DNA of 64,000 bases from Proteromonas lacertae (lineage: Eukaryota; Sar; Bigyra; Opalinata; Proteromonadidae). The stretch lies in NCBI GenBank assembly GCA_002245135.1, contig NGBS01001164.1, positions 1 to 64,000 on the forward strand. The letters run 5' to 3'. The notes below the pieces were generated by a model that ran no database searches, was not told where the DNA came from, and saw only the letters and a list, made by a program, of their open reading frames with translations. Shown here piece after piece: positions 3,282 through 51,536 of this stretch (the stretch's first letter is position 1; every line of letters begins with the position of its first letter). A program made the position numbers and the translations under genes.

Positions 3282-3662
3282 ATAAATTTTGAGATTTGTC
3301 TATCTGTCTTTGAATTAAATGAAAATTTTCAAAATAGATTATCAAACCTACAACAAATATATAGTCGTTTTTGAATTAATGTTTTATTAAATAATGAGAG
3401 ATAGAGAGAATAATTTGTATATTGATATTCATTTTGTTTAATGCATTGCAGGTATAAAGTAGTTGAGTATTTAATTGTTTGTTTATGTTGTTGATCTGGG
3501 TAGATTATTGGAATTAGCTGTATAACTAGCCAAAATGGATGTAATCATTAATATACTATATAGTAAACATTATATATTATTTAAATGTTGGGAATATGTA
3601 AGAACCATTTGTTCTGCTTCACTGTTCTATAGTACTTTTTTTTCTTCTTTTTTCTTCGCACA
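3282..3662. other. Divergent intergenic region
   Basis: This 381-bp AT-rich gap separates two divergently transcribed genes and should hold both promoters. I see no open frame, RNA gene or clear repeat. A T-rich stretch lies just before the ATG at 3663. Confidence 0.5.
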
Positions 3663-4664
3663 ATGAATTTTTTTATTTTATCAATAATATTTATAATTTC
3701 AGTTATTGCTAGTATATATCTACAACATATTTTACTTATAGATAATAATGAAACTGTTCAATGTATAGTAAGTCCAAGATCTTCAAGTTATTCTGTAGGA
3801 AGTGAAATAAAAATAAATGTAAAGTGTCCTAATAATCAAATGCCCCTTATATACCCACCATTACCAAGTTGGTTAAAGTACAATAAAGAATTCCAAATAA
3901 TCGAAGGAATATCGTCCAATGAGAATAATAGTTTTGACACTAATTTTTTCTATGTTGTAGCTCAAGGAGTTAATACACCATCTAGATTTTCATTGACTAT
4001 ATATGATGAAAAAACGTGTGATGCAGGAAATGTTGAAGAGACTGTTGAAACAAATAAAAATGATAAAAACAAAAAGAAAGTAAAAAAGAACAAAAACAAA
4101 AACAAAAACAAAAAAGAAAAGCATATAAGTTTAACAAAAGGGTTATATATGAATTTAACTGTAATATATTTGTATAATTATTGTCTTTTATAGATTGATG
4201 GATATAATAAGACTGTATTAAGTGACATAGATAATTACGAATTATTTACTTTATTGTCTACTTTAATGAATGTACCAACATCAAAAATAACAGTTGAAGA
4301 GGTCAATTTAATCAATAATAAACTGTCATATAGATTTTATATTAATGAAAATAAGAAAATATGTAAGGAAATTAGAAAATCAATGAAATGGGCATTTCCA
4401 AAAGGTGATTTACATCCTTTTATTCAACATTTTACATTAGGTGAACTAAGTAATACAAAAATCTCTATAAGATATCTTGGTGATGACTCTTCAGGTGGTT
4501 ATAAACTTTTATCATTCCATACATTAGGAGTTTGTCTACTTTATCTACTGTATTTATCAATAGTGCTGATTGTGATATACATGTCTTGTCTTTATATAGT
4601 TGGATGTTATTATATTGGAAAGAAATATATGATACCCTTTGTTAAATACTTAATTAAAACATAA
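3663..4664 (+). CDS. Small membrane protein with one cadherin/dystroglycan-like repeat
   Basis: Two exons are joined by a 33-nt phase-0 intron (4161-4193), giving 322 aa. A hydrophobic N-terminus (MNFFILSIIFIISVIASIY) is a signal peptide or anchor. Residues of about 40-115 contain PPLPSWLKYN...FQIIEGISS, the pattern of CADG/He_PIG repeats. A Lys/Asn-rich low-complexity linker follows (about 130-155). Next comes a module of about 100 residues (VLSDIDNYELFTLLSTLMNV...SKITVEEVN) that resembles the juxtamembrane region of the giant protein at 20367-41650. A long hydrophobic stretch near residues 275-305 and a short basic tail end the protein. It looks like a minimal relative of the giant adhesin. 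The function is unknown; cell-surface contact is an inference. Confidence 0.75.
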
Positions 4665-5717: not shown

Positions 5718-7919
5718 ATGGGAACATCACCTAGTTTTATTAAAGAGTGCACTTACATCGTCCCAAATTCTGCAGACTATGAGCATGGATACGTATATTG
5801 CTTCATTTGATTTATAGGGACCGATCTACAGACATAGTGGTTGTGAAAATGGTTTGGTAGAAAATAAATGGCCTGACTGTTATACACTCTATGATTTGTT
5901 CAAGTATATAATAGTTGTTTCTTACTTCTTATAGTTATGGAAGTAAACATTATGGTAAAGAACCTTGTTTTGGTAGAAGACGTCTTATAGATGGAAAATT
6001 AGAAAGAGTCTTTACATTCTTTACGTATTGTAACTCATTTACAAATTATTTAGATATTTTGAGGTTGGACAAATGGTTAAAAGTTTTGGAAGTGGTTTAA
6101 AAAACCTAAAATTAGTAAATGCAATAAAAGGAGATGGAGTTCACAAGAAACAAGATGGTAGTGATTTTGAATGTATAGGTATCTACTGTCGTAATTGTTA
6201 TGAATGGTGTGTTTGTGAGTATGGTAGTTTCTATAATAACTATACAATTGTTCCATTATACGATACATTAGGAGCTGATGGTTTAAGTGTAATTTTAGAT
6301 GAAGTTGGTTTTAGTACGATAATGTGTGGTGAAAAGGAATTAACCAATTTAATCAACCTCTTGGAAACTCAAAAACATGATACTTTAAAGAATGTTATTA
6401 CTGTTGATGAATTATCAGAAGAATTAAAGAAAAAAATCAAAGATTTAAACTTGAATTTATTCACTTTCAATGATATAATAGAAAGTGGAAAAGAACATCC
6501 AATTAGTGAAAATGAATTGTCTTTACCAAAGAGAGAAGATACTGCATTAATTATTTATACAAGTGGATCTACTGGAACTCCAAAAGGTGTTGTTATCTAT
6601 CACAGATGTTTAGCTTCATTAGCTCAATCCAGTCAACTACATGATGATAGAACGATGGGTGTAACTGGTGATTTTTATATATCCTACTTACCATTACCAC
6701 ATGTATTTGAACAGTTTATTATTGGAAATATTCTAAGTGCTGGTGGTGCTATTGGTTTTTATAGTGGTGATAAGAGACTATTGATGGAAGATATATTTAT
6801 ACTAAAACCAACTATATTTGCATCTGTTCCAAGAATATTCAGTAGAATGAAAGATCAAATTGAAATGACTGTTAAGAAAACTGGTGGATTTGTAGAGACA
6901 ATGTTTAATAAGGCAATTACTGCAAAACAAGCTGCTTTAGATGATGGATACTTAACTAACAGACTATATGATAAATTGGTATTTTCAAAGATTAAAGCCA
7001 AGCTTGGATTTGACAGAATAAGATGGATAGTAAGTGGTTCAGCTCCATTACCAATTGATACTTGTAGATTCTTACGATGTGTATTTGGTTGTCCATTATT
7101 TGAAGGTTATGGTATGACAGAATCAGGAGGAGGTATTTGCTGTGGTGAATTAGACGATGTTTCACGATTTGGTAGTTGTGGAGGACCAACTCATTGCTGT
7201 GAAATGAGATTAGTATCAGTACCAGAGAAACATTATTCTGTTGAAGATAAAGAACATACTAGTAATACTGGTACAATAGTATGTGATGGAAGGGGTGAGA
7301 TATGTTTAAGAGGTTTTAATGTTACTCCAGGTTATTTTAATAGACCTGATTTAACTAAAGAGACTATAGATGAAGAAGGGTGGTTTCATACTGGAGATAT
7401 TGGTTTGTGGGATGATAAAGGAACAATCCATGTGATTGATAGAAAGAAGAATATATTGAAACTATCTCAAGGTGAATATGTAGCTATAGAATCATTAGAA
7501 AATGTATTTATATTTGTTATATTATTATTATTAATTAGATATATCAATCATCTCAATATGTTGATCAAATATTTGTATATGGTGATAGTTATAAGAGTTG
7601 TTTAGTTGCAATTATTGTTCCTGATTATGGTAGTTTGAAATTATGGTGCAAGGAGAAAGGATATAGAGAAGAAAGCTTTCAATCATTATGTCAGAGTGAT
7701 GCAGTTAAAGAATTAATACAAAATGACTTATTAAGAGTTTGGAAAGAAAAGAAATTGAATGGTATAGAAAGATTAGCTGCTATTAGTATTCATTCTGATG
7801 CTTTTACAGTTGAAGATAACTTATTAACACCTACAATGAAACTTCGAAGAAATGATTTATCATCTAGATATAAAACTGAAATTGATCAATTGTATGAAGA
7901 TGTAAAGAATAAAAAGTGA
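5718..7919 (+). CDS. Long-chain fatty acid-CoA ligase (acyl-CoA synthetase)
   Basis: Five exons, with introns 5793-5817 (25 nt), 5904-5934 (31 nt), 6025-6053 (29 nt) and 7504-7538 (35 nt), give 693 aa in frame, the usual size of the long-chain ACSL family. It activates fatty acids to acyl-CoA using ATP. Visible motifs in order are: the N-terminal FTYFEVGQMVKSFGSGL, the AMP-binding P-loop YTSGSTGTPKGVV, the linker region SYLPLPHVFEQ, GYGMTESGGG, WFHTGDIGLWDD, and the FACS signature DRKKNILKLSQGEYVAIE. The start at 5718 is the first ATG in the joined frame. No transmembrane segment or targeting tail is obvious. The 3' end faces the GPCR gene across 148 bp. Confidence 0.92.
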
Positions 7920-8067: not shown

Positions 8068-11000
8068 CTATTTAACATTTGCATATTCATTGGATGGAGT
8101 AACAATCAACATCTTCTCATGCAAAGCTGTTCTACTTGATTTAACAATCATATTCTTTGTAGATTCTTGACTCTCTTTATTTGATTCTTTTGATCCACCT
8201 GATTTAAAATCTTGAGATGCTGGTGTAAAATCTGATAAAGCCATTTTCAAACTTTGTTTTTCATTTCTACAAACATGGGCACTAGAATTGACTGAGAGAT
8301 TATATGATTCTGCTCTTGAACTACCACTCTTTGGGTATATATGTGAATTCTTCTTTATAAATCCAGATCTATATATATATGAATTAATAACAGTAAATAT
8401 ATATACGAAGAACCATTACTATCTGTTGGTGATATATCATCATTTACTTTCAATGTTCCATCTACGTTTTCTAAAACTGTTTTATCTTTTACATACACAT
8501 TACGATTCAATAATGACTGACAAGTTCCGTTTTCATCACTCTTTATATTCTCTAATCTTATCTTTTTGGATACTGGTATAACATTTCTTGATTCTTCATT
8601 TATCCCATGCAAATCTGTTCTTGGTGAATGCTTAGTCATTGATTTTGGAGGGAAAAATGGACTATATTTAGAAGAATCAGATGTCTTAGATTTAGATTCT
8701 TTAGCATTCTGAGCATTTAAATAATACAAATGTAATTTTTCTCCCATAATTATTACAGATATGAATGTAGAAACTAATGATATTCCCATTCCTATTAATA
8801 TTTTTTTCATACTGAAATCTGAAATAAACAAAGAGGAAGGAGCTATAATTAATACCCCAAATATTACAGAAAAATTAAAGATCTTAAATAATATGTATAG
8901 AAAAAGATATATATAACAATTGCTGAATAAGTTATACTCATCGATTCATTAAACTCTGGATCAGCATTTCTCAATCTAAAACTAGAGTAAAGCAGCATTA
9001 AATAAAATGTTAAAAACACAATTATTGCAATAACTCCAAGTGGAATATTAAATACACAACTCTTAATTATTACTGTTCTTTCTACTGTAGTATCATCTCC
9101 AACAATTTCTGTTTTTATACTATTAAATGAAATAATATATATTGATAATATACCTTGGCTGAACAGCGAAATTCCATATTATTGTGTATATTGTAAATAG
9201 TATAGTAATTATCATTACATTATAGAATAAATCGAACTGAGTCACTTTTACTTTTTTAATTCCTGTATTATTCAACACTTTATGCACTTTAAAAATCTTT
9301 ATAAATAAAGTTGATAGTAACAAAATTGCAGAAAAAAGGAAACAAATAATCTGCCCTATACAATGTGTTTCATTTTCAGGTATGATACTTAAATACATAG
9401 CCGAAAATGATAAAAATACTGAGGAGATTATTACTAAAATACAAAATACAGGAAAAGCTCTTCTTATAATCTTCGATTTTCTTTTCACTATTACAAAGAC
9501 TAAAAATGATAAGTTTAATAATCCATTTATTACATTAGCAGCATATATAATTTCATCAATCCCTTTTCCAGCACTAAATAACAAAATGGGAGGTCCATAA
9601 TATGGTAAATCATTTTGATCTTTTCTGTATGATGTTGGATATGTTGCAATTACTGATAATGTTAAATGATTATTAATTTGACTATAGTAATGATCATGAA
9701 TAATTATATTAGAAGTGGCAATACTTACCTGAACTCCATAATTTAAAAAACTGTTCTTGTACAACAGATACCTAAATATAGTCTTATCTATATTAACATA
9801 TTCCTTTTTATATCCAACACACAAATCTATTCCTTTAGATAACATTTTCATTGCTAATGATGAGTAATATATAAAATCATTCACATGAATTTGATTATAA
9901 GAATTATCTTTAATTAAATTGTTATAACTTTTTGTTACTAAATTGTAAGGCATATAAGAATAAATTACATAATGATGCTTTAATGTATTCTGATAATTAA
10001 GAAATACATCATAATCTGGAAATACGAAATGCATTGTAATAGATGAACTTGTCAACTCTAAATTCTCATATGCACTGATTATATTTCTCAAACATTCTTC
10101 ACCAAAGTGAATTACAATTACTATAACATTTATTATTAATTCATATAGATATTATACCTGCAATCTTTTCATTTGATGTTGAATATTCTCTAAACCTTTC
10201 TTTCACGATTTCTTCAGCATTTATACATTCATCAAGTACTATTACATCCAATAGATTATACTCATTTCTCATTGTTTTGTTCAACATATCCAATCTAAGT
10301 AGAATTAAGAAAAACAATCAAATCATCAAATAGAATAAAGAAAAAAGATATACAGGACATTTTGATAAACCAATCAAAATAACATTCTTCATCATCATCT
10401 TTTTAAATTGATCATCTATAATATCATACGCTACAGTATCAACAAACGAAAATGAAATGATATTACTTTGTAACAAACTCTGTTTTGTTCCACCTGTTAT
10501 GTGGAATAATAAAGTTCTATTAAAATCATATCTTACTTTTTCAAGATTATATGGGAATATAAAACCAACATATGCAAAATATTCATCTTGATTACTTTCA
10601 ACTATTTCTTTTAATTCATCTGTTGTAGTATAACTCTTTGAGAATAATTGAAATCTATAATCATATATTTTTTCTTTATTAATTTCATTCATTTGGTAGT
10701 AAAATGTTAAAAACATATTAATTGATATCATTGGTTCAACAGGAGAAAGAATAAACAATATCTTAAATACATATTGATCTTTAGCAGCAACATCTACATC
10801 TAATAAACATCTTTTGGTATTAGAATAAGGATTATAATTGTAAGGATATATCGGTGTTTCTTGTGAATATTCTAGAATGAATTTTGGTTTTCTATAAGTT
10901 GTTTTTATTTTTGAAACAAACAACAATTGTTCAGGTTTTCTACCTACTGTAATATATACTAAACCATATGGACTTATTGTCTTTAAATTATTGTTAAAAA

Positions 11001-14000
11001 CATACCATAAATGATCATTTATTTCAAGCCCATTTGCATCATTAAACAATCGATTCATCAATTGCATTGTCGTTATTGCTATATGTTGTGGATATTCAAT
11101 TATATAACTATCTGAATATATATGTTCATATGCAATTGATATATCTCGTGATACACTACTATATTTATAGTTCAAATCTGTATTACTAGTATTTGCTAAA
11201 CTATCAAAATATGGACTAATAATATAGAAATTATTTATAAGATATAAGTCTCTAGTTTCAATTTGTAAAGTACATAAATCTGTAACTATCATATTACTAC
11301 TACTATTAAATAATTTTATAAACCATTCAAATGTTTCAGCATCAATATGCAAAACAGGACCAAATAGTAATAGAATAACATCTGTATTATTCTTTAATAG
11401 ATTAATAATTGGCTTTTCTGATAATCTATTATTTAAATCAAACGACAAAGATCTAATATCTTTAAACGGATAGTTTGATAATTGAGGGTATAGAGATGTG
11501 AAATATCCTGAATATTCTTCATTATAAATGATTGTAATATATCTGTTTTTCTTTATCACGAAATTGGTGAAATGATATCCAAGTTCATATGGAAAATAAT
11601 TCATAAATAATATATTCTTTTCGCATACTTCTCCAGGATGAGGCAATAAGTATACAAGTATCTTATTTGTATGATATAATAGTGGCAAAAAATACTGTTG
11701 TACATATTTATAGTTCAAAACAGCAAGGAAAACTGTTGTTTTTATACTTTCAAAAGATGCTATTATATCTTTATAATAGTACATTTGTAAATGTATATAA
11801 TGATCTAAAATTCCACCTTTCATATTCATATCTCCTATATATCTGTTAACAGAAGATACATAAGCTCTTTCATAAGGTGTCATATCCACTAAAGGATTTT
11901 CTAATATTATTCCAAAGAAGAATAATTCCTTTACATATACATACTGCTTGCTAGGATCATCGTTATTATCACCACCTTCATTATAATCAACTACACTTAT
12001 TTTTCCTGATGTAATATTCTTTTTATGACATATTTCATGGAATTGTATTAGTCCATGTCTGATAGTATATTTATCTTCCTTATAATTAATAAAGTAAAGA
12101 TCTCTTTTAACAATATTTGAATGAGATATAGAAATAGTAGAATAAGGTGTTTCAATTGATATATTATACATTGGCAAATCTTTTATTGTGTAACTATTGT
12201 ATGAAAATAGACGCTTTATATATTCTACATATATCAATGCTACAAATGATTCTTCATTTTCTATATCTTTTTGATGTTCTTGTCCTTCTTTTGATTCACT
12301 ATATTTCTCAAAATATTCATAAACTAGATAATCTGTGATGTTATTATCAAATATATATCCTTGTTGTTGAATAGATTTATTAATACCATATTTGTCATAT
12401 GTTACAATTATATAATTACTTATTTCTGCTCTACATGAAGCTAATGCTGTTAATGACAGTCTTTCACTACATGTATAAAACACTTTGTTACGATGAAGGA
12501 ATAAATCATCTTCTTGACAAATACTATCAGCAAAATACTTTAAAACATGTTTGTATAAAAGACTAATAACATTGAAGGATTCTGTTCCAACATAATTAAC
12601 AATGAAATTATCTATATCCTTTTCATAATCTTCTTCATCCACTAAATAATATATCACATCTAAGAAATATAATTCAGCTTTTATTCTTTTAACTAATACT
12701 TCTGACATTTGACTATATATTACAATGATTTTATTATAATAATGATTATTGGTAATATATTCAACAGCAGGAAAAATGGCTTGTAATGCACTTGATGAGC
12801 ATATTAAATTCTTTGATACTATACAATCTATACATGGATATATATTAAAGTAAAGAATTTCAGTACCATCAACGTATTTTTTCACTAATTCAGTTTCATA
12901 TTTTGACATTCCTCCAATAACCACTTTCAATCTTTTCATACTTAAAAGTGATGTAAATGCTCGAAGAAAATCAGAATTTGTATAACAATCATAAGTTACA
13001 ATAAATGTATATAATTCTTCTATAAATAAAATAAATTTATATATAAATATACCATTCATAATATAGTAATTAATTGCGTTTACAATAGTCAATACAACTG
13101 GTCTTGTATAACTAATTAAATCATCATCATTAACACTAAATAACAATCCAATTATATTAAACTGAACTTTTGTTGTTGAAGTCTCTTTTTTATCATAATC
13201 CACTATACACAGCAATCCTGAATAAGTGCCCATATACCAAGGATAAGGATAGATATATGATTCAATTTCACCAGAATAAGCTTTAACAAATTTCAATTTA
13301 TCACTATCATCTACTAAAACTACATACAGATCATTTGTAGATGATAAATATTTATTTATATATTGTTCATGTAATCCAATTCTGTATTTCTTATTCACTA
13401 TCTCCTCTAAATTATACAACAAATTGAATTTTCCAATTGATTTAACAATAGTAAAATACAATTCCATAGCATTATATCCAATATAATTAAAATATGTTGG
13501 AGTTCTATTATACGACCTATAAAATCCATTTTCGAAATCCATAAAATTCAATTCCAATAAATCAGCAAAATATCTATCTATTGAAAAAACATTTCGTGTA
13601 TTATAACTAGCATTACTATAATATCTAAATAAATCTAATGTGCAGAATGAGAAAGTGTCTAATTTACTCTTTGATGATATATAGTTAAAAACTGATGGTG
13701 ATAAATATGGTATTGTATTTAATACTAATACATCACTATCAAATACTCCATCTAAAAAGTTTCTGACGCTGTTTATTGTTGGATTAACCAATATCATACT
13801 ACGAAATCCTAATATCTTGGAATAACTTCTGAATAAATTGGAATAGACATCATTTATATCTACAGCTAATAAGAGAATGTGTTTTACATTTTTTGCATAG
13901 AAATGATTTAACAATGTTGTCATGACATTAGCTTTATTCTTAACAGTAGAGAAAATATGAGTACTACAAGTTCCAACATCATCATTAAATGAAAATAACA

Positions 14001-17000
14001 CTCTATTATTCTTAGTGAGGAATGGCTCCATGAATATTGTACATTCCTTTGTAGTACATCCGAAGAATACTACCATATCAGATAAACTTGAATAATAGTC
14101 CAGATAATAATCTATAAGCGGTGATTCTATAAACGTAGTTGTCATTCCATTCAACATATTGTTATATTTATTCATTGTATAAGACATTCCTCTAAATATT
14201 TGACTTAAATTTTCTGAGCCATCATCTATAAAGACAAATACAACCATTTCTCCAAGATTTGTACCATAATACACATCACATTTTAGTTGATACAAAACAT
14301 TATGATTATAATGATAATAAGGATTTGCTTCAATGATATTACCAGATGTGTAAGCTAATTTAACACCTAACCTATTGGTGTTATTATAAAATCTTCCAAT
14401 TCTGATAGTTCTCGATATATGATTTGAATAATCTAACAATATTAATCCTTCTGGAGCTTCATATTCTAAAATAATTGGATCATTACCTATTGCTGTATGA
14501 GTCAAATAAAAATAAAACTCAAACATATAAGCGGCAGTAAAAGCAACAGAACTAACATTTGAAAGTTTTAAATAACTAAATACTGATTCATCAGTCCAAA
14601 TTGAATAATAAGGTAGATGATATTCAGGATGATAATTACATACAAAGTGATTATTGATTAAATATTCTATTGGATATTGCAAAGATGAGAAATAATCCAT
14701 ATTAATATCAAATATTTCATATTCAAATTCACTATACAATTTTGAATATCTATATAGCTCACCATAGAATTTTAAACTATTCGTTCTATTCAAATCTACT
14801 ATTAAAGCACATTTTGTATTTCTTAATCTAATCTCATCAAATATAACTCTATATTGTTTTTCATTAATATAATAAACCTCAGCATAATCAACATAATGCG
14901 AATTCATTGCACAATCAAAAAACTCAGATGAATACCATCCCTGTAAACTATCATCTTTATCAATGATTAAGTTAGTATTTGTGATTTTTGAAGAATCAAT
15001 AAAATCTCCAATTGTTACTACCTTTTGATGAAGTGGCATTCCTAAAATAATGAAGTTCTTATTATAACATTCCTGATAAGTTGTATCATACACATACAAA
15101 AATAATGTTTCTGTACTTTCCACTGCTTTTGATATAATTTCTCTTGCTCGTAATGATGGATATCCACCAAATATTGCAGTTACTTTATTATCAATTAATT
15201 CCTTTATTATACTATACAATTTCTGCATATCATCACCACAATCATAAGAACTGATGATATACTTTGTGTCATATGACAAAAAATAGGTAAAAAAGTCTGA
15301 AGATAATGTAAAAGCATATGCTACACTTGAATATATATCTTTGTATTTACCAGTAAAAGGATGAACAAAAGCAATACGAGTAGTATATGGAAATAATACC
15401 TTTTCAGCATTTTCATCACAATAATAAAAATTGTCATGATAAGTTATTGAAAAAGGATGTGGATAGTAATTATTAGCTTCTTCATTAAGTTGAACCAATT
15501 TCGTTCCTTCCTTATTGTAATATCTTATAATCACTTTTTGAGAAACATACAAATCATAAGTAATTGAAATAGAACCTAAAACAGTTTCATAATCTCTTAT
15601 TAGTGTTATTTCTTTAATTGAATTAAACGATATTGTATTTTCACTCAAATAATTTGAATATAATATTTGTGTTAATGCAAACAAAATAGCACTATTATCA
15701 TCGTATAACATTTCCATTCCAAAATAACTTTGAAGAAAATGAATATAACTAACAGTAAGAGTAAATGAACTCCTAGGATAAAAGTTTTCTAAATATAACA
15801 CCCTATTGTATACAATTGTATCTCTCAACTGTAAGTAAATAAATTCTGGTGAATTTTTAATCAGCATATAATACAATACATTATCATCACTTAATAAGTA
15901 TTTATATCCTAATCGAATTAATTCTTTATTTAAATTATCATCATCCACTAGTAATACAATTAATCCACCATATGGAATATCTCTTCTAATACCTTCGAAT
16001 AAATGGAAAATCTTTAATGTTGATGTATCAGAGGATGAAATTCTATATATCAACTCAGTGATATTATAATATGATAGTATCTTTATCACCATATCTATAT
16101 AAGTTACAGAATATTCACTATCATCTACAATAAAACAAATTGGTTTATCCCATTTCTGTAAATGTATAAACAAAGACATTATTTCTTGTGATGCTATACT
16201 TCCACCAAATATTCTAATATTATTATATAAACAATATATATTCTATACATATTATGAGGACACATTTCACCTATTGTTTGATATGGATATAAAAAAGGAA
16301 CATCTTTGCCAATTAAGTAAGATTGAAAAAATGTGATACATTCTTCATAATAACAACCTGCAATAGATGAAATAGTATAATTATTCAGATATTCATCTAA
16401 AACACCTTTATAATCATTAAGTTTCAATGGAGAATCATATTGTAACATCAAAATTCTCTATTGCATAATATTATTATGATAAATATATACCATTGTTACA
16501 TTGTGAGTCAATGACATATTATAAGTTGCAGATACATAACCTTGTAATGTAACAAAATCATGTAAATTATCACCATTGTATAAATACAGTAAATAGTAAA
16601 CTTTTGATTCTACTAATTCACCAAATTCACATCTATATACATCATCGTTCATCAATTCATTATTGGGATTTCTTATATCAAAAGGATGAATCATATTTCC
16701 TTTATTATTGAATTTTGTATTAAATAGCGGAGATATTAAGTTAGAATTTGTCCTATGACTTAATTTAAATTCTTTATTTATAATTTGAATTACATAAACA
16801 TTACTAGCTATGCTTTGAGATCTAGTAAACACAATACTATCTTTTGCACTATCTATCAATAGGTTATTTTTATTTCTTATAAACTGTATTGATGAGTATA
16901 AATCAAGAATATAGGTGTGAATATAAAATGAATTATTTACAGCGTATGGAAATGTATGGTTAAAAACTTCAAACTTTCTTCCATAATCTTCAAACGCAGT

Positions 17001-20000
17001 ATGAAGTTTAGTATTACTTTGTATATTTAAATTATTGTGATATGTTGAGATGATATAAACATTATCTAATTTGTCTAAATAGTGCAATACATCTGCTTCA
17101 TCATTCTTCACTATAACGAAAGTAACATCAGATAATAATGGAGATATTTGAGCATTTGTACCTGCTTCTAGTGTAGAAATAAGATATGATCCTTTACATT
17201 CTGCATTAATCTTTGGAATAGTAATAGTCAGAATATCATTATCTGAATAATAAAATAAAATGTTAAATCTAATGTAAAGTACATTTCCTTTTAAATGTTT
17301 GAGTAAATTCTTTGAATAACTATATAATATAAATTGCTACTTAATTATACATATCATCATAACCAATTATACATAAATTCATTTCTTTTCTTTCATACAG
17401 CGCTGTCAAAGATAATGTAACATTATTTATTCCAGCAATTGTCTGTTCTAATGAATCTCCCATCTATTATTAATATAATATTGATATAAATACATTTATG
17501 TAATTAGAATAGCATAATTTTTCAGAATAATACCAATAATTGACAACTAAAGAATCTGTGTCTTTTATATCATCTTTAAATTTATACATAAATTCATCTC
17601 TATAAACATATAACATAAATCGACATGAATATATACGTTAATGGAAGTATAAGGTAGGATATTTCACTTTTAATATGGTTAACTGTATTGAATACATTTT
17701 TCATACAGTTATAATCATCAATTCTACAAGAATAATAAAACAATTTTGGAAGAACTTCATTTATTCCCATTATAAACATGTCTTGAACTAAATTAAATAC
17801 AGAATAATAGAAATAGAGTGAATTCTCTGTTTGATGTGGAAATATTATATGAACATAAGCCATAGGCATAATACTTATCTTAGACTCTAATCCATCACAT
17901 TTTTCAATGGTTTTAGATGTGAAATTATAGTCATAACCATAAGTATTTTGAACAAATGGTGAAGTAACTATTGTTTTAATGTTATAATCATTATTAGTAT
18001 TATCAATTAAATAAAGAGATGTGAAGCCCATTGTATAAAAATTACTACCAATTGCTGTTCCATTTGCTTCTACATCTTCAACAGTAAAACAATGCTTATA
18101 CTCGTTTGAGTAATAGCTTGTACATCTCTTTATTGCATCAATTATCATTTTTACAGCATTTTTACCTATTCTGTAGTCAATTGTATATTTTGGATCGAAT
18201 TTTATATAATATTTGATGGGAATTACAGATTCATCAACGGGATTGTTACTATTCATTGAAATGAAATAGAAGTTATTAATATTAATCTTATAAGCAAAAT
18301 ATTTATAAGGTGATGAATGACTAAATGAAATGAATAAACTCAAATTTGGATTTCCATCATATAGTTTAAAAAACTCATATGAACATTTACCTTGAGCTCC
18401 ATGTAAGATAAGATGAACTATAAACAATATAAATATTATTATTATTATATATATACCTTTACTTTCTGCTTTTAATATATTCACAACTTCTTGAGTATTT
18501 GACAAGTCTTGTTTTAACTGATAGTACCTTACTAGATATATAATCATATAATCACTACTCTCAATCATATTATATAAATAATCACCATATCTTCCTTCAG
18601 AATAAACTACATATAATATTTTATAATCCAGAGTTTTAGGTATTCTATTATAATCAACAGAGATGAAGAAATGAAATTGTGAGTATATTATAGAATTGAG
18701 AAATACTACATGCGAATTACATATATTACCTTCTGTTTCTTCAACATCAAAAAGCAAAATATCCAATCTATCAAGAGTTGGTAGTATTTCAGAAAGTAAA
18801 TCACTTTCTATTGCTGCGAAAACTGTATCTAATTTGTACATAGATGAAAAGTTATTTAACTACATAATATAATAACAAAAACTAATTAAAATACTAATTC
18901 ATTTAATTCATCTACTGAATCTGGAATTGTCTTTTTTATAATCCTCAAAGTATATATGTTTTCACTTTTAGAGAAATATGTAAATTCTGATGCTATTACA
19001 TCCAGTGAAGATGCAATTCCATCAACTTTTTCATTCATATATTCACTGTACAGAATAGCTACATACTTTACATCTAATGTTTCTATATTACATAATTCTT
19101 GATGAGTTATATTCGATATTATTGGTGAATATGATCTATCATCTAAATCAGAATATACATTAAACTTCTGAACCATATCCAATTTATTTGCATTATTTAC
19201 TTTAAACAGATAATAATCAGAATAAAAGAAGTTATTCTCACTAAAATATAATATTGTCTCTGGAGTAGTAACATTCTTTCTATATTCCTTCTTTATAATA
19301 ACACCATCATAAAATACCATTTTATCAATACAATCAAGCCAATGTTTCATCATATAATATGTCATATACAGTGATATTGATATTGTATCTGAATCACCAT
19401 ATTCTGATTGATATAATTGTGTAAATTCTGATGATTCAATATCTTCAACATAATTCATAAATAAATAATTACTTACAGCATTTGCATTGGATGAATATAC
19501 ACTTTTTACTGAATCATCAAGTGAATAAATAACAACTCCATTAACACTTTCACTATTTAGTTTATTGAGTAGATTATCAGTGTCTGTTCCTATTAATGAT
19601 GAAACAATACTTCCTCCATTTGGTAACATTTGCTTGATTTTACTTACAGCATCATCTACAGAAGTGAATGTGATTGATCCACGATATTTAACACTTTTAA
19701 AATTGTAATTATTTGATGGGAGAAACAAATTATCAAAACCATCTGATAAATCACTTTCATAATTCAAAATTACGGTATTTCCATTCAATTGTGACAATAA
19801 CATATGAATTTCATGAATGAATGTACCAGCATATATTGAGTATTTACTACACTGCATGTTTGTATAAATATCTGGAATTATAAGCAGTACTTTACTATCA
19901 AGATTCATGTCATAAATTTGCTCCCGACATAGAGGATTTGAGTATAAAAATAAAAGATGTAGTGCTTTAGAATACACATAATCTGCTACAGTCTTACATT

Positions 20001-20214
20001 CATTAGCATTTGTTATATTCTTGTTTATAAATATAAAATTGTTACTATTTGATTGGTGTGTATGATTTGAAAATGCAAGATTAAAGGATTTATAAATTAA
20101 CTCTGACATCTTAAGATATGAAGGTGTAACATCAAGTACAACACCTACATTGATATTTTGTGTGATTAATGCTGATGAAAAAGTTAGATATATAAAGAAA
20201 ATTAACAAATACAT
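8068..20214 (-). CDS. Giant class C GPCR-like receptor with about nine tandem Venus-flytrap domains
   Basis: The start at 20214 gives a signal peptide (MYLLIFFIYLTFSSA). I find introns at 18860-18894, 18418-18456, 17600-17636, 17464-17493, 17320-17350, 16458-16490, 16214-16248, 13020-13052, 10295-10353, 10121-10157, 9120-9153, 8883-8917 and 8369-8406, all GT-AG; only 10295-10353 fails to keep frame, by one base. The protein is about 3,890 aa. Residues 17 to about 3,420 hold repeated periplasmic-binding-protein-I (ANF receptor) units of about 380 aa, with first strands such as NVGVVLDVT, VKYVAILYS, TRIAFVHPF, FNIIGLLFS and FKILFILSP, most preceded by a Cys. Seven TM segments follow (about 3,430-3,675), with a TM3 Cys (HCIGQIICF), a loop-2 Cys and the class C signature FRLRNADPEFNES before TM6. 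The tail is Ser-rich, about 215 aa. The family senses small ligands. The ligand here is unknown. Confidence 0.85.
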
Positions 20215-43849: not shown

Positions 43850-44701
43850 TTACACTTTACTGTCAAAGTTAACATAATCATATCCTTCGAAAGGGTTATT
43901 TTCCAATATTATTCCAGATCTATCTTGTTCCATTGGTTCTTCATCGTAAGGATCGAAATTAGAAGTATCACCAGCACTTGTTACTTTTGGTATATATATT
44001 GGTTTGACTTGTTTATTATACATATTCTCCCAATCAATTTTTGAATAGAAACTATGGGTTTTAATATCATCCACTCCATTCTTCAAACAACCTAATCTCT
44101 CAGTCAGATCTGATGATAATAACTTCTTTATCAAATCTCTTGTATTATCTTGGATGAATTTTGGCACTATTATTTTGTTTTTAACTATCAATTGATAAAC
44201 TTGCATTGGATCATCTGCATAGAAGGGCGGTTCTCCTACCATTGTTTCATAAATCAATACACCGAGTGTCCACCAATCAACACCAGTGCCATGACCTTTA
44301 TTTAGTATAATCTCTGGAGCTAAATATTCAGGTGTTCCACATAATGTGTAAGTTTTGAAATCTACTTTTTTAGCGAAGCCAAAATCAGTTATTTTGATAA
44401 ATCCATGTTTGTCAATTAATAGATTCTCTGGCTTTAAGTCTCTATATACAATATTCAGTTGATGTAAATAATCAAAAGCTAGGACTATCTGTGATGTAAA
44501 AAATGCTGTTTCATCTGCATCAAGCAATCCCTTGAGATTTAAATATGAAAAAAATTCTCCTCCAGGAACATACTCCATCAAAAGATATAAAGATTTGGCA
44601 TCTTGAAAAGCAGCTTTTGTTAAGACAATGAATGGATGATAAATTTGTACCAGTATATTTTTCTCATCCATGATATGTCTTATTTGCTTTTGTTCACGAT
44701 A
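43850..44701 (-). pseudogene. C-terminal part of a PKA-type kinase gene, separated from its N-lobe
   Basis: The frame from 44701 down to 43850 encodes the kinase from Tyr-Arg-Glu-Gln (helix C start) to the C-tail. It contains MDEKNILVQIYHPFIV, the YRDLKPEN catalytic loop, TDFGFAKKV, the activation segment TLCGTPEYLAPE, RLGCLKNGVDDI, and a C-tail ending NPFEGYDYVNFDSKV. This is the AGC/PKA catalytic-subunit pattern with all C-lobe catalytic residues kept. The Gly-loop and ATP-binding Lys are missing here; they lie at 49639-49882 on the same strand. Joining the two parts across the insertion restores a continuous frame of 341 codons, the usual PKA size. An ATG at 44671 could start a truncated product lacking the N-lobe, which would be inactive. 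Confidence 0.85.
44699..44701. repeat. Insertion-flanking ATA, left copy (possible target-site duplication)
   Basis: ATA here and ATA at 49639-49641 are the two copies of bases that occur once in the rejoined kinase reading frame. On the coding strand they form the Tyr codon TAT, between the His and Arg codons. Confidence 0.6.
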
Positions 44702-45323
44702 AGAATTTTCTAAGTGCTTTTTGTGACTTTAAATAGATTTTTCTCAATAACTATAAGGAATAAAATAGTAAAAATTTGTCAAACGATGTATCATGCTTTG
44801 AGCTTTATCATAGTATACTTAGTTTCATAATTACCTCTTTCATGTCATTCGTCTGTTTTTGATATGTTACATTATAATTGAATAACAACAAACATAAATA
44901 ATAACATTGATATATTTTTATTTGATTTATATCATTTATTAGCTTTAAAAACTATAATACATCTCGAACTGTACTGATTTTAAATACCACGTATTTGGCT
45001 AATAGGGACTGAAATATGTTAATAAATTTTATACGTAATCACTACCTATATACGATATGTATAGTATAGGAGTATTCCAGAAAGGACGATATTAATTTTG
45101 ACTAGGTAATTGAATGTAATCGTGATATTATGTGATTTTTGATGTATGTGTGTGTAGTTAAATAGAGCCATATTGCTATTTTTGACTAATTGCTTCTAAT
45201 TAAGAAGATATCAAAATATTTTTCATACCAGCACTATATGCTGTACTATTATGTTAATCTGAATAGCTAAACCCCATAAATACACTGTATAACATATATT
45301 ATAGATAAATTACTGAATCAATA

Positions 45324-50016: not shown

Positions 50017-51165
50017 CTACATCTGGTCCTTCATTTTTGGCTCTAAATCATAACCTGCTGTTGATAATAAATCATAAACTGGTTGTCCATTCTCATCTAC
50101 TTCAACCTTAGTATTGTAATTATAGTTTGCAAATAATTCTTGATGTTCTGGTGATAATTTCTCCTTTGGGGCTTCTTCCACATCAAATGCATCACCTAAA
50201 TCATTCTTACCAGTATCACAATTGGCTTTCTTTATATCCGGTTTAAATGGTGCATCCATATCCTTCTTTCTAAACGAAGCCCAATCAAAATGACTAAACC
50301 ATTCATGTTCAATTAAGTCTTTCACTCCATTCTTATGTCCTAATCGTGTATGACAATCACTCTCTAAAGTTCCAACTAAGAAAGAAGAAGCAGCTGGTGA
50401 TAGTTCAACTCCCATTCTTTTAACAGCATCACTAGGATCTAATTGATCATTGGAATGGCCTTGAAACTCGAATGGCCATTTACCACAAAGAAATTCATAG
50501 GTAACTATTCCAACTGAATAGAATTCTGATATTCGGTTATGTTTATGATCACTATGTAAGATCTCTGGTGCCATATAGGCTCTAGTACCACTACCAGCAT
50601 AACAATAACCATCTTCTTTCAATTTCTGAGATATACCAAAATCGGTTAGACGAATATAACCATTTGCATCTAATAACATATTATCTGGCTTTATATCTCT
50701 ATGAATTATATGTTTTGAATGTAAATATTCTAATGCTAATAATAAGCAGGCTATGTAGAATTTGGTAGATTCTTCGTCAAAATGACCTTGTGGATTATGT
50801 CTTAATTGATATCTTAAATCTCCACCTAAACAGAGATCCATTACCATATAACAATTATTATCATCTTGAAATGCATAAAACATATTTACAAGGAAGGGAT
50901 TATGAACATCTACCAATAGATTCCGTTCATTCATGATCATATCTGCATTTTGTGTCTTAATAACCTCTAATTTTTCTAATGTTTTAATTGCATACCATTT
51001 ACCTCTATACATATTATTAAATATGATAATTAAATACGTCGGCTTGTGAACACAGGCATTAACCTTACCAAAACCACCTTGACCAACTACTCTTTCAATG
51101 CTGAAATGTGTTTTATTAACATGTGTTGGATCTATTATTTCTTCAGAACTAGAACCGCATCCCAT
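50017..51165 (-). CDS. STK32/YANK-family AGC serine/threonine kinase
   Basis: Two exons with a 33-nt in-frame intron (51005-51037) give about 371 aa. The N-terminus MGCGSSSEE fits N-myristoylation plus Cys palmitoylation, so membrane attachment is likely. The kinase domain is complete: GQGGFGKV loop, YAIKTLEKL Lys, HRDIKPDN, TDFGIS, and the APE-region text AYMAPEILH. YANK-like text follows (FYSVGIVTYEFLCGKWPFE, RLGHKNGVKDLIEHEWF, FRKKDMDAPFKPDI). The tail ends in an acidic segment without an obvious hydrophobic motif. Because the intron has no stop and a length divisible by three, unspliced RNA would add 11 residues in the N-lobe. A degenerate paralogue lies at 1188-2349. Confidence 0.9.
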   Translation of the reverse strand: MGCGSSSEEIIDPTHVNKTHFSIERVVGQGGFGKVNACVHKPTYLIIIFNNMYRGKWYAIKTLEKLEVIKTQNADMIMNERNLLVDVHNPFLVNMFYAFQDDNNCYMVMDLCLGGDLRYQLRHNPQGHFDEESTKFYIACLLLALEYLHSKHIIHRDIKPDNMLLDANGYIRLTDFGISQKLKEDGYCYAGSGTRAYMAPEILHSDHKHNRISEFYSVGIVTYEFLCGKWPFEFQGHSNDQLDPSDAVKRMGVELSPAASSFLVGTLESDCHTRLGHKNGVKDLIEHEWFSHFDWASFRKKDMDAPFKPDIKKANCDTGKNDLGDAFDVEEAPKEKLSPEHQELFANYNYNTKVEVDENGQPVYDLLSTAGYDLEPKMKDQM

Positions 51166-51536
51166 TATACTTTTTTTTTCTATTAGAAAAATATTAGAAA
51201 AGAAGGAAATAGAAGATTTGAAGTTTTATTAATAAAACATAACAAAATAAATAAACGTAAAAATATATTCATACTGATAAATAGTGAAATATTGAGATAA
51301 ATAAGTTTAAAACGAGAGAAAAAAACAAAAACGATGTTTCTGTTTGTTTGGCTTGATATTTTCAGTTATTCTACTTTTTTATAAACACATGATTATTTTG
51401 ATGGATAGTGTGTGAAAATGGTTTGAATTTTTGAATCTAATTATAAAATTATTCTAATATTTAATTAAAAACACTGTTATATCATTTTATAAAATGAAAA
51501 TATATTCGTTTCATTATTTTTTGATTTTTTATTTTG
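51166..51536. other. Divergent intergenic region
   Basis: This 371-bp AT-rich gap lies between the divergent starts of the STK32-like kinase and the unknown gene at 51537. A T-run precedes the kinase ATG. No other feature is supported. Confidence 0.4.

Follow-up and report, generated by a model that had tools for sequence, protein, structure and literature searches.

How many ligand-binding flytraps a single class C G-protein-coupled receptor (GPCR) can carry is the question raised by a gene of Proteromonas lacertae, located in the 64,000-nucleotide (nt) stretch of DNA analysed here and called the window (positions 1 to 64,000 of contig NGBS01001164.1, assembly GCA_002245135.1). To our knowledge, class C GPCRs have one flytrap per protomer or none. 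The gene lies on the minus strand, from a Met codon at 20214 to a stop codon at 8068, and its model encodes about 3,890 residues, ordered as a hydrophobic N-terminus, nine tandem units of the type I periplasmic binding protein (PBP-I) or Venus-flytrap (VFT) kind, a class C seven-transmembrane (7TM) domain, and a tail (Table 1). An earlier note on this DNA had proposed a tandem array of about nine flytraps on a class C 7TM, and this observation is confirmed by unit profiles, by the Pfam family 7tm_3 and by predicted folds. The gene is probably one diverged copy within a large family, specific to this lineage, in which about nine PBP-I VFTs precede a GABA-B-like 7TM.

The unit count was obtained with a hidden Markov model (HMM) trained on 144 units of other proteins, with the window left out, which gave exactly nine matches in the window protein, the weakest having an independent E-value (i-E) of 2.2e-9 with 51 sequences searched. 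Fifty shuffles gave no match to this profile, and the giant protein encoded by the neighbouring gene gave nothing above threshold. The matches start at 20.15, 18.97, 17.83, 16.45, 15.38, 14.22, 13.15, 11.87, and 10.75 kb, in agreement with the unit starts listed in the earlier note, and those of units 2 and 4 begin well within the profile. When Pfam was run on the unspliced frames, one unit alone was detected (Peripla_BP_6, 44 bits), and the window member is therefore called divergent. Structure prediction, which the earlier note had named as a check, returned whole PBP-I folds for the units tested. The alternative that the repeats are something other than PBP-I found no support in the fold matches of these units and was set aside.

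Thirteen short introns were modelled in the receptor gene, the same number that had been counted before for a single gene. Twelve of them measure 30-39 nt, 12 start with GTAT, and 12 finish with TAG; the ends of intron 8917-8883 are atypical. A strict consensus filter was passed by 7 of the 13 and found zero matches in 20.7 kb of the adjoining open frame. Introns 18456-18418 and 13052-13020 contain no stop if read through, and both pass the filter; splicing them lifts the scores of their host units from 22.5 to 26.9 bits and from 27.0 to 33.0 bits, respectively. They are treated as introns because of this rise and because the filter was empty in the neighbour's frame. An X was placed in the model protein at the junction 10353-10295. 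The protein also has 39 N-glycosylation sequons, and by hydropathy, residues 3433-3680 apart, only its N-terminus and a marginal peak (residues 3061-3079) are hydrophobic.

Within residues 3433-3680, hydropathy gives nine overlapping hydrophobic segments that merge into seven. The spliced C-terminal piece aligns to positions 11-249 of the 251-position 7tm_3 model and scores 72.5 bits (cut-off 33.5 bits; longest single frame 47.2 bits), the paralogues L009 and L010 reach about 131 bits, and the predicted model of L009 has seven long helices. The features of a standard class C bundle described in the earlier note were recovered, namely the Cys pair, found in ETHCIGQ (from residue 3493) and IIKSCVFN (from residue 3582), and the FRLRNADPEFNES signature at residue 3612. 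C876 and C966 of alignment A2, located at the start of helix 3 and just ahead of helix 5, are invariant in 18 of 18 rows; they are the conserved class C Cys pair of the start of the third transmembrane helix and extracellular loop 2, a putative disulfide, and their equivalents in the window protein are the two cysteines just given.

Across the 50.2-Mb genome (1,181 contigs), 7tm_3 has 132 matches, 123 of them above the curated cut-off; some contigs are duplicates. The open frames holding these matches reach at least 1,000 amino acids (aa) in 57 of the 132 cases, at least 2,000 aa in 36, and at least 3,000 aa in 7. Beyond the window, the reading covered 19 family loci selected for the length of their frames and another 3 whose frames were shorter. 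Enough upstream DNA was present at ten loci (the window, L009, L010, L015, L018, L021, L023, L034, L036, and L038), nine of which have nine units when intron-split pieces are merged by eye; the tenth, L038, has eight units and a faint sign of one more. In several family loci the first unit scores low (8-25 bits), and no further unit was found upstream of unit 1 in the 1.9-3.6 kb present there at the nine nine-unit loci. The other 13 loci read, including L011, a near-duplicate of L009, each carry six or more units in the longest frame. Seven complete units and the 7TM share one frame of 3,223 aa in L009 and of 3,181 aa in L010. Moreover, a protein from a separate data set (P0001, source code lgn, taken to be Logan) has everything in one 3,886-aa frame: a Met, a hydrophobic N-terminus, nine Peripla_BP_5 stretches and the 7TM. 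Over its C-terminal 581 residues it matches the gene at C830:144080-145822 of this genome with 90 % identity (next best 63 %), and P0001 is therefore assigned to a close relative. The same match rules out P0001 as a distant independent lineage, and this protein alone is no proof of great age. A paralogue on contig C250 is 40 % identical to the window gene. The genome also contains 12 matches to G-alpha genes, five of them strong; two of the strong ones score identically and are probably on duplicate contigs.

In a tree of 138 units, position labels change 19 times, against a mean of 92.7 after shuffling (minimum 85 of 200), and protein labels change 126 times against 115, so that units are related by position and not by protein. 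Groups in which at least 90 % of the units belong to one position were obtained for positions 3 to 9, with P0001 in each; two of these groups have low support and some units fall outside their own group. Since units group by position across paralogues, the array is older than the multiplication of these genes in the lineage. Units inside one protein share a mean identity of 15.6 % (105 pairs, five loci); this value and the grouping by position rule out recent within-gene duplication and assembly collapse. Where a single frame holds units 3-9 (five loci), identity climbs from 29 % for unit 3 to 45 % for units 8 and 9, and this pattern of conserved units 8-9 and less conserved distal ones would suit a base that transduces and an arm that has diversified.

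The 7TM sequence is nearest to GABA-B, as seen with PDB entries 7ca3_B (E 4e-16, one paralogue) and 7c7q_B (E 1e-38, 18-row profile), and Foldseek matched the predicted model of unit 9 plus 7TM to GABA-B 7c7s_A (E 2e-25). Also as in GABA-B, the VFT is joined to the 7TM with no Pfam cysteine-rich domain found between them (at E 0.01, NCD3G matched none of L009, L010, P0001-P0003, and the C-terminal piece of the window protein). Unlike GABA-B, there are nine VFTs instead of one, and a GABA-B-like VFT sequence, which would mark that subfamily, was not found, the VFTs being closer to bacterial UrtA and AmiC. Searched against PDB, the profile of units 5-6 gave UrtA 8tg1 (E 4e-59), 7s6e (1e-53), and AmiC (6e-27), with no class C receptor among 34 PDB sequences at E 0.01. 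For the profile of units 8-9, UrtA is best over the VFT part and a GABA-B1 match starts inside unit 9. Peripla_BP_5 is present in 53 of the 54 large-database matches listed, and of the 16 matches whose source is named, 15 are labelled urea transport binding proteins. The units resemble UrtA and AmiC (Peripla_BP_5) in fold and overall sequence family, and differ from them in being nine-fold on a eukaryotic 7TM and in having most UrtA-conserved residues replaced. Two other proteins, P0055 and P0058, have a UrtA-like flytrap joined to PF02518 and PF00512, which we take to be histidine kinase domains; judging by these domains, they would be another signalling use of a UrtA-like binding protein.

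Bacterial sensor kinases of the BvgS type carry two tandem VFTs on a signalling protein, with no 7TM and a different PBP fold type. Among the listed results of searches of the open-licence PubMed Central (PMC) literature, neither titles nor abstract openings mentioned tandem flytraps on a GPCR. A study of diatom class C GPCRs reports candidates of 300 to over 1000 aa, seven of them having an N-terminal PBP-like domain (PMC3727952); the receptors of P. lacertae share with them a stramenopile class C 7TM and, as in some diatom candidates, a PBP-like ectodomain. Choanoflagellate and other non-metazoan glutamate-family GPCRs have varied ectodomains on a class C 7TM, some of them ANF, and differ from the present family in that the available part of the study describes no tandem flytrap array for them (PMC12716839). 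The words tandem and Venus have zero occurrences in either study. The nine-flytrap receptors are a novel form of class C GPCR, not a new kind of system.

Some results weigh against this reading, either for the window copy itself or for the work of its units. The junction 10353-10295 is 59 nt long, exceeding the other introns, and is one base out of frame, which may be an assembly error or a real lesion; additionally, the window units group poorly and with low support, unit 1 falling with units 5 and unit 8 with units 7 of other proteins. Because of this frame step and poor grouping the window gene could be decaying, and a pseudogene within a family that is itself real would also account for the atypical splice ends at 8917-8883 and for 7tm_3 and unit scores below those of most paralogues read. 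Such decay is nevertheless unlikely, given that, after intron removal, no stop interrupts the 3,196 codons between the start and the junction, that the Cys pair and the transmembrane pattern are retained, and that a near-identical copy on contig C351 differs mainly in short gaps that may be noise from the assembly. This copy, possibly the other haplotype (contigs C351 and C352 are next-numbered), is 99.66 % identical over 4.76 kb, where it shows 5 substitutions and 7 gaps, in a comparison that covers about 11.8-16.5 kb and stops short of the junction; its 7tm_3 match outscores that of the window, unspliced, by 62 to 37 bits. The need for 13 introns with one junction off-frame could also mean that two or more genes were misjoined, namely secreted multi-VFT proteins beside an ordinary class C 7TM gene. 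This is highly improbable and was rejected because the paralogues and P0001 are contiguous frames, L009 and L010 passing from seven complete units into the 7TM with no stop and P0001 doing so from nine.

As for the work of the units, over 78 UrtA-conserved columns the window units keep 13-24 % of the residues and positions 3-9 keep 20-32 % on average, and since these residues are largely lost, many units may have no ligand at all or an unrelated one. The conservation gradient becomes faint when all loci are taken, with mean identities of 24.2 % for unit 3 (6 loci) and of 19.2, 19.6, 22.7, 20.1, 23.6, and 23.9 % for units 4 to 9 (16-18 loci), and the predicted model is not reliable as to how the VFT is oriented towards the 7TM, the root-mean-square deviation being about 25 Å over the full match. 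The array could be a spacer or adhesive arm in which unit 9 alone, or none, binds ligand and the other flytraps are structural beads that keep the tip of the receptor well away from the membrane, where it would touch prey, a host or adjacent cells. The loss of UrtA-conserved residues is in line with this, as are the low conservation of distal units in the five loci, the giant He_PIG/PA14 protein encoded by the adjacent gene, and a unit number kept near nine, which suggests selection on length. Passive beads are rather unlikely all the same, because the tested units retain whole predicted PBP folds and each position has a sequence character of its own that persists across paralogues, beyond what a spacer needs.

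For a nine-flytrap receptor, analogy with GABA-B makes it most likely that the membrane-proximal flytrap drives the 7TM. Unit 9 would close, probably in a dimer as in GABA-B, and its closure would be passed to the 7TM and then to a heterotrimeric G protein. The distal units would form a long arm of diversified flytraps binding further small molecules or partners, and this binding would bias the unit-9 switch; the arm may bind several ligands or act as a spacer. We infer that the receptor is exposed at the surface, dimerises, binds ligand, couples to a G protein, and divides labour among its units. A tentative and somewhat doubtful scenario is that a bacterial protein binding urea or amides was captured by a GABA-B-like receptor in a stramenopile lineage and multiplied to nine, and that the receptor expanded to about a hundred genes, so that each receptor would bring up to nine different small-molecule inputs, spread over a rod some tens of nanometres in length, together on a single G-protein switch.

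Table 1. Features of the receptor gene, in window coordinates
Feature	Position	Strand	Evidence
Start codon and hydrophobic N-terminal stretch, probable signal peptide (aa 1-21)	20152..20214	-	hydropathy only
VFT unit 1 (aa 22-345)	19180..20151	-	leave-window-out HMM, 81 bits
VFT unit 2 (aa 415-688), introns 18894-18860 and 18456-18418 inside	18077..18972	-	28 bits
VFT unit 3 (aa 770-1090), introns 17636-17600, 17493-17464 and 17350-17320 inside	16773..17833	-	29 bits
VFT unit 4 (aa 1186-1491), intron 16248-16214 inside	15502..16454	-	103 bits
VFT unit 5 (aa 1533-1866)	14377..15378	-	
VFT unit 6 (aa 1920-2225)	13300..14217	-	28 bits; alternating alpha/beta in predicted model
VFT unit 7 (aa 2275-2624), read-through intron 13052-13020 inside	12070..13152	-	33 bits; score up on splicing
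VFT unit 8 (aa 2690-3013)	10903..11874	-	57 bits
VFT unit 9, membrane-proximal (aa 3065-3394), junction 10353-10295 and intron 10157-10121 inside	9666..10749	-	40 bits
Class C 7TM (aa 3433-3680), introns 9153-9120 and 8917-8883	8739..9551	-	7tm_3 72.5 bits spliced; hydropathy
Ser-rich C-terminal tail, intron 8406-8369, stop at 8068	8068..8738	-	

Directly upstream of the receptor gene, on the same strand, the giant gene (20372-41414, minus strand) holds an uninterrupted frame of 6,929 aa, with 11 and 6 He_PIG (putative immunoglobulin) stretches in the two parts scanned, a PA14 match and, by eye, a C-terminal hydrophobic segment after those domains; its product looks like a giant surface protein. 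By eye, a short, gene-like frame at 3633-4664 (plus strand) begins hydrophobic, contains a stretch rich in Lys and Asn, and has another hydrophobic segment at the C-terminus, a layout that echoes the end of the giant protein. An AMP-binding (acyl-CoA synthetase-like) gene at 5915-7919 (plus strand) is convergent with the receptor gene, and protein kinase domains are encoded at 43850-44728 and 50017-51225, both on the minus strand. For a proteasome gene of the window, the top named sources among the best 120 of 7,418 matches are Peronospora, Hyaloperonospora, Phytophthora, Florenciella, and Nannochloropsis, with the cryptophytes Guillardia and Hanusia further down the same 120 and two lgn proteins at 93-94 %. 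The leading names are thus oomycetes and other stramenopiles, and by this one gene the host is probably a stramenopile; its short introns would fit Opalinata.

With its number held near nine and each position having its own identity, the array is a natural experiment on the gating of a class C switch by a chain of domains. It makes testable how far ligand information can reach through serial flytraps, and how frequently bacterial binding proteins were turned into GPCR ectodomains. Should different units recognise different molecules, the receptor would be a multi-input chemosensor in one polypeptide, of use in sensor building, and if the capture and expansion outlined above are true, the family would be a combinatorial class of chemoreceptors.

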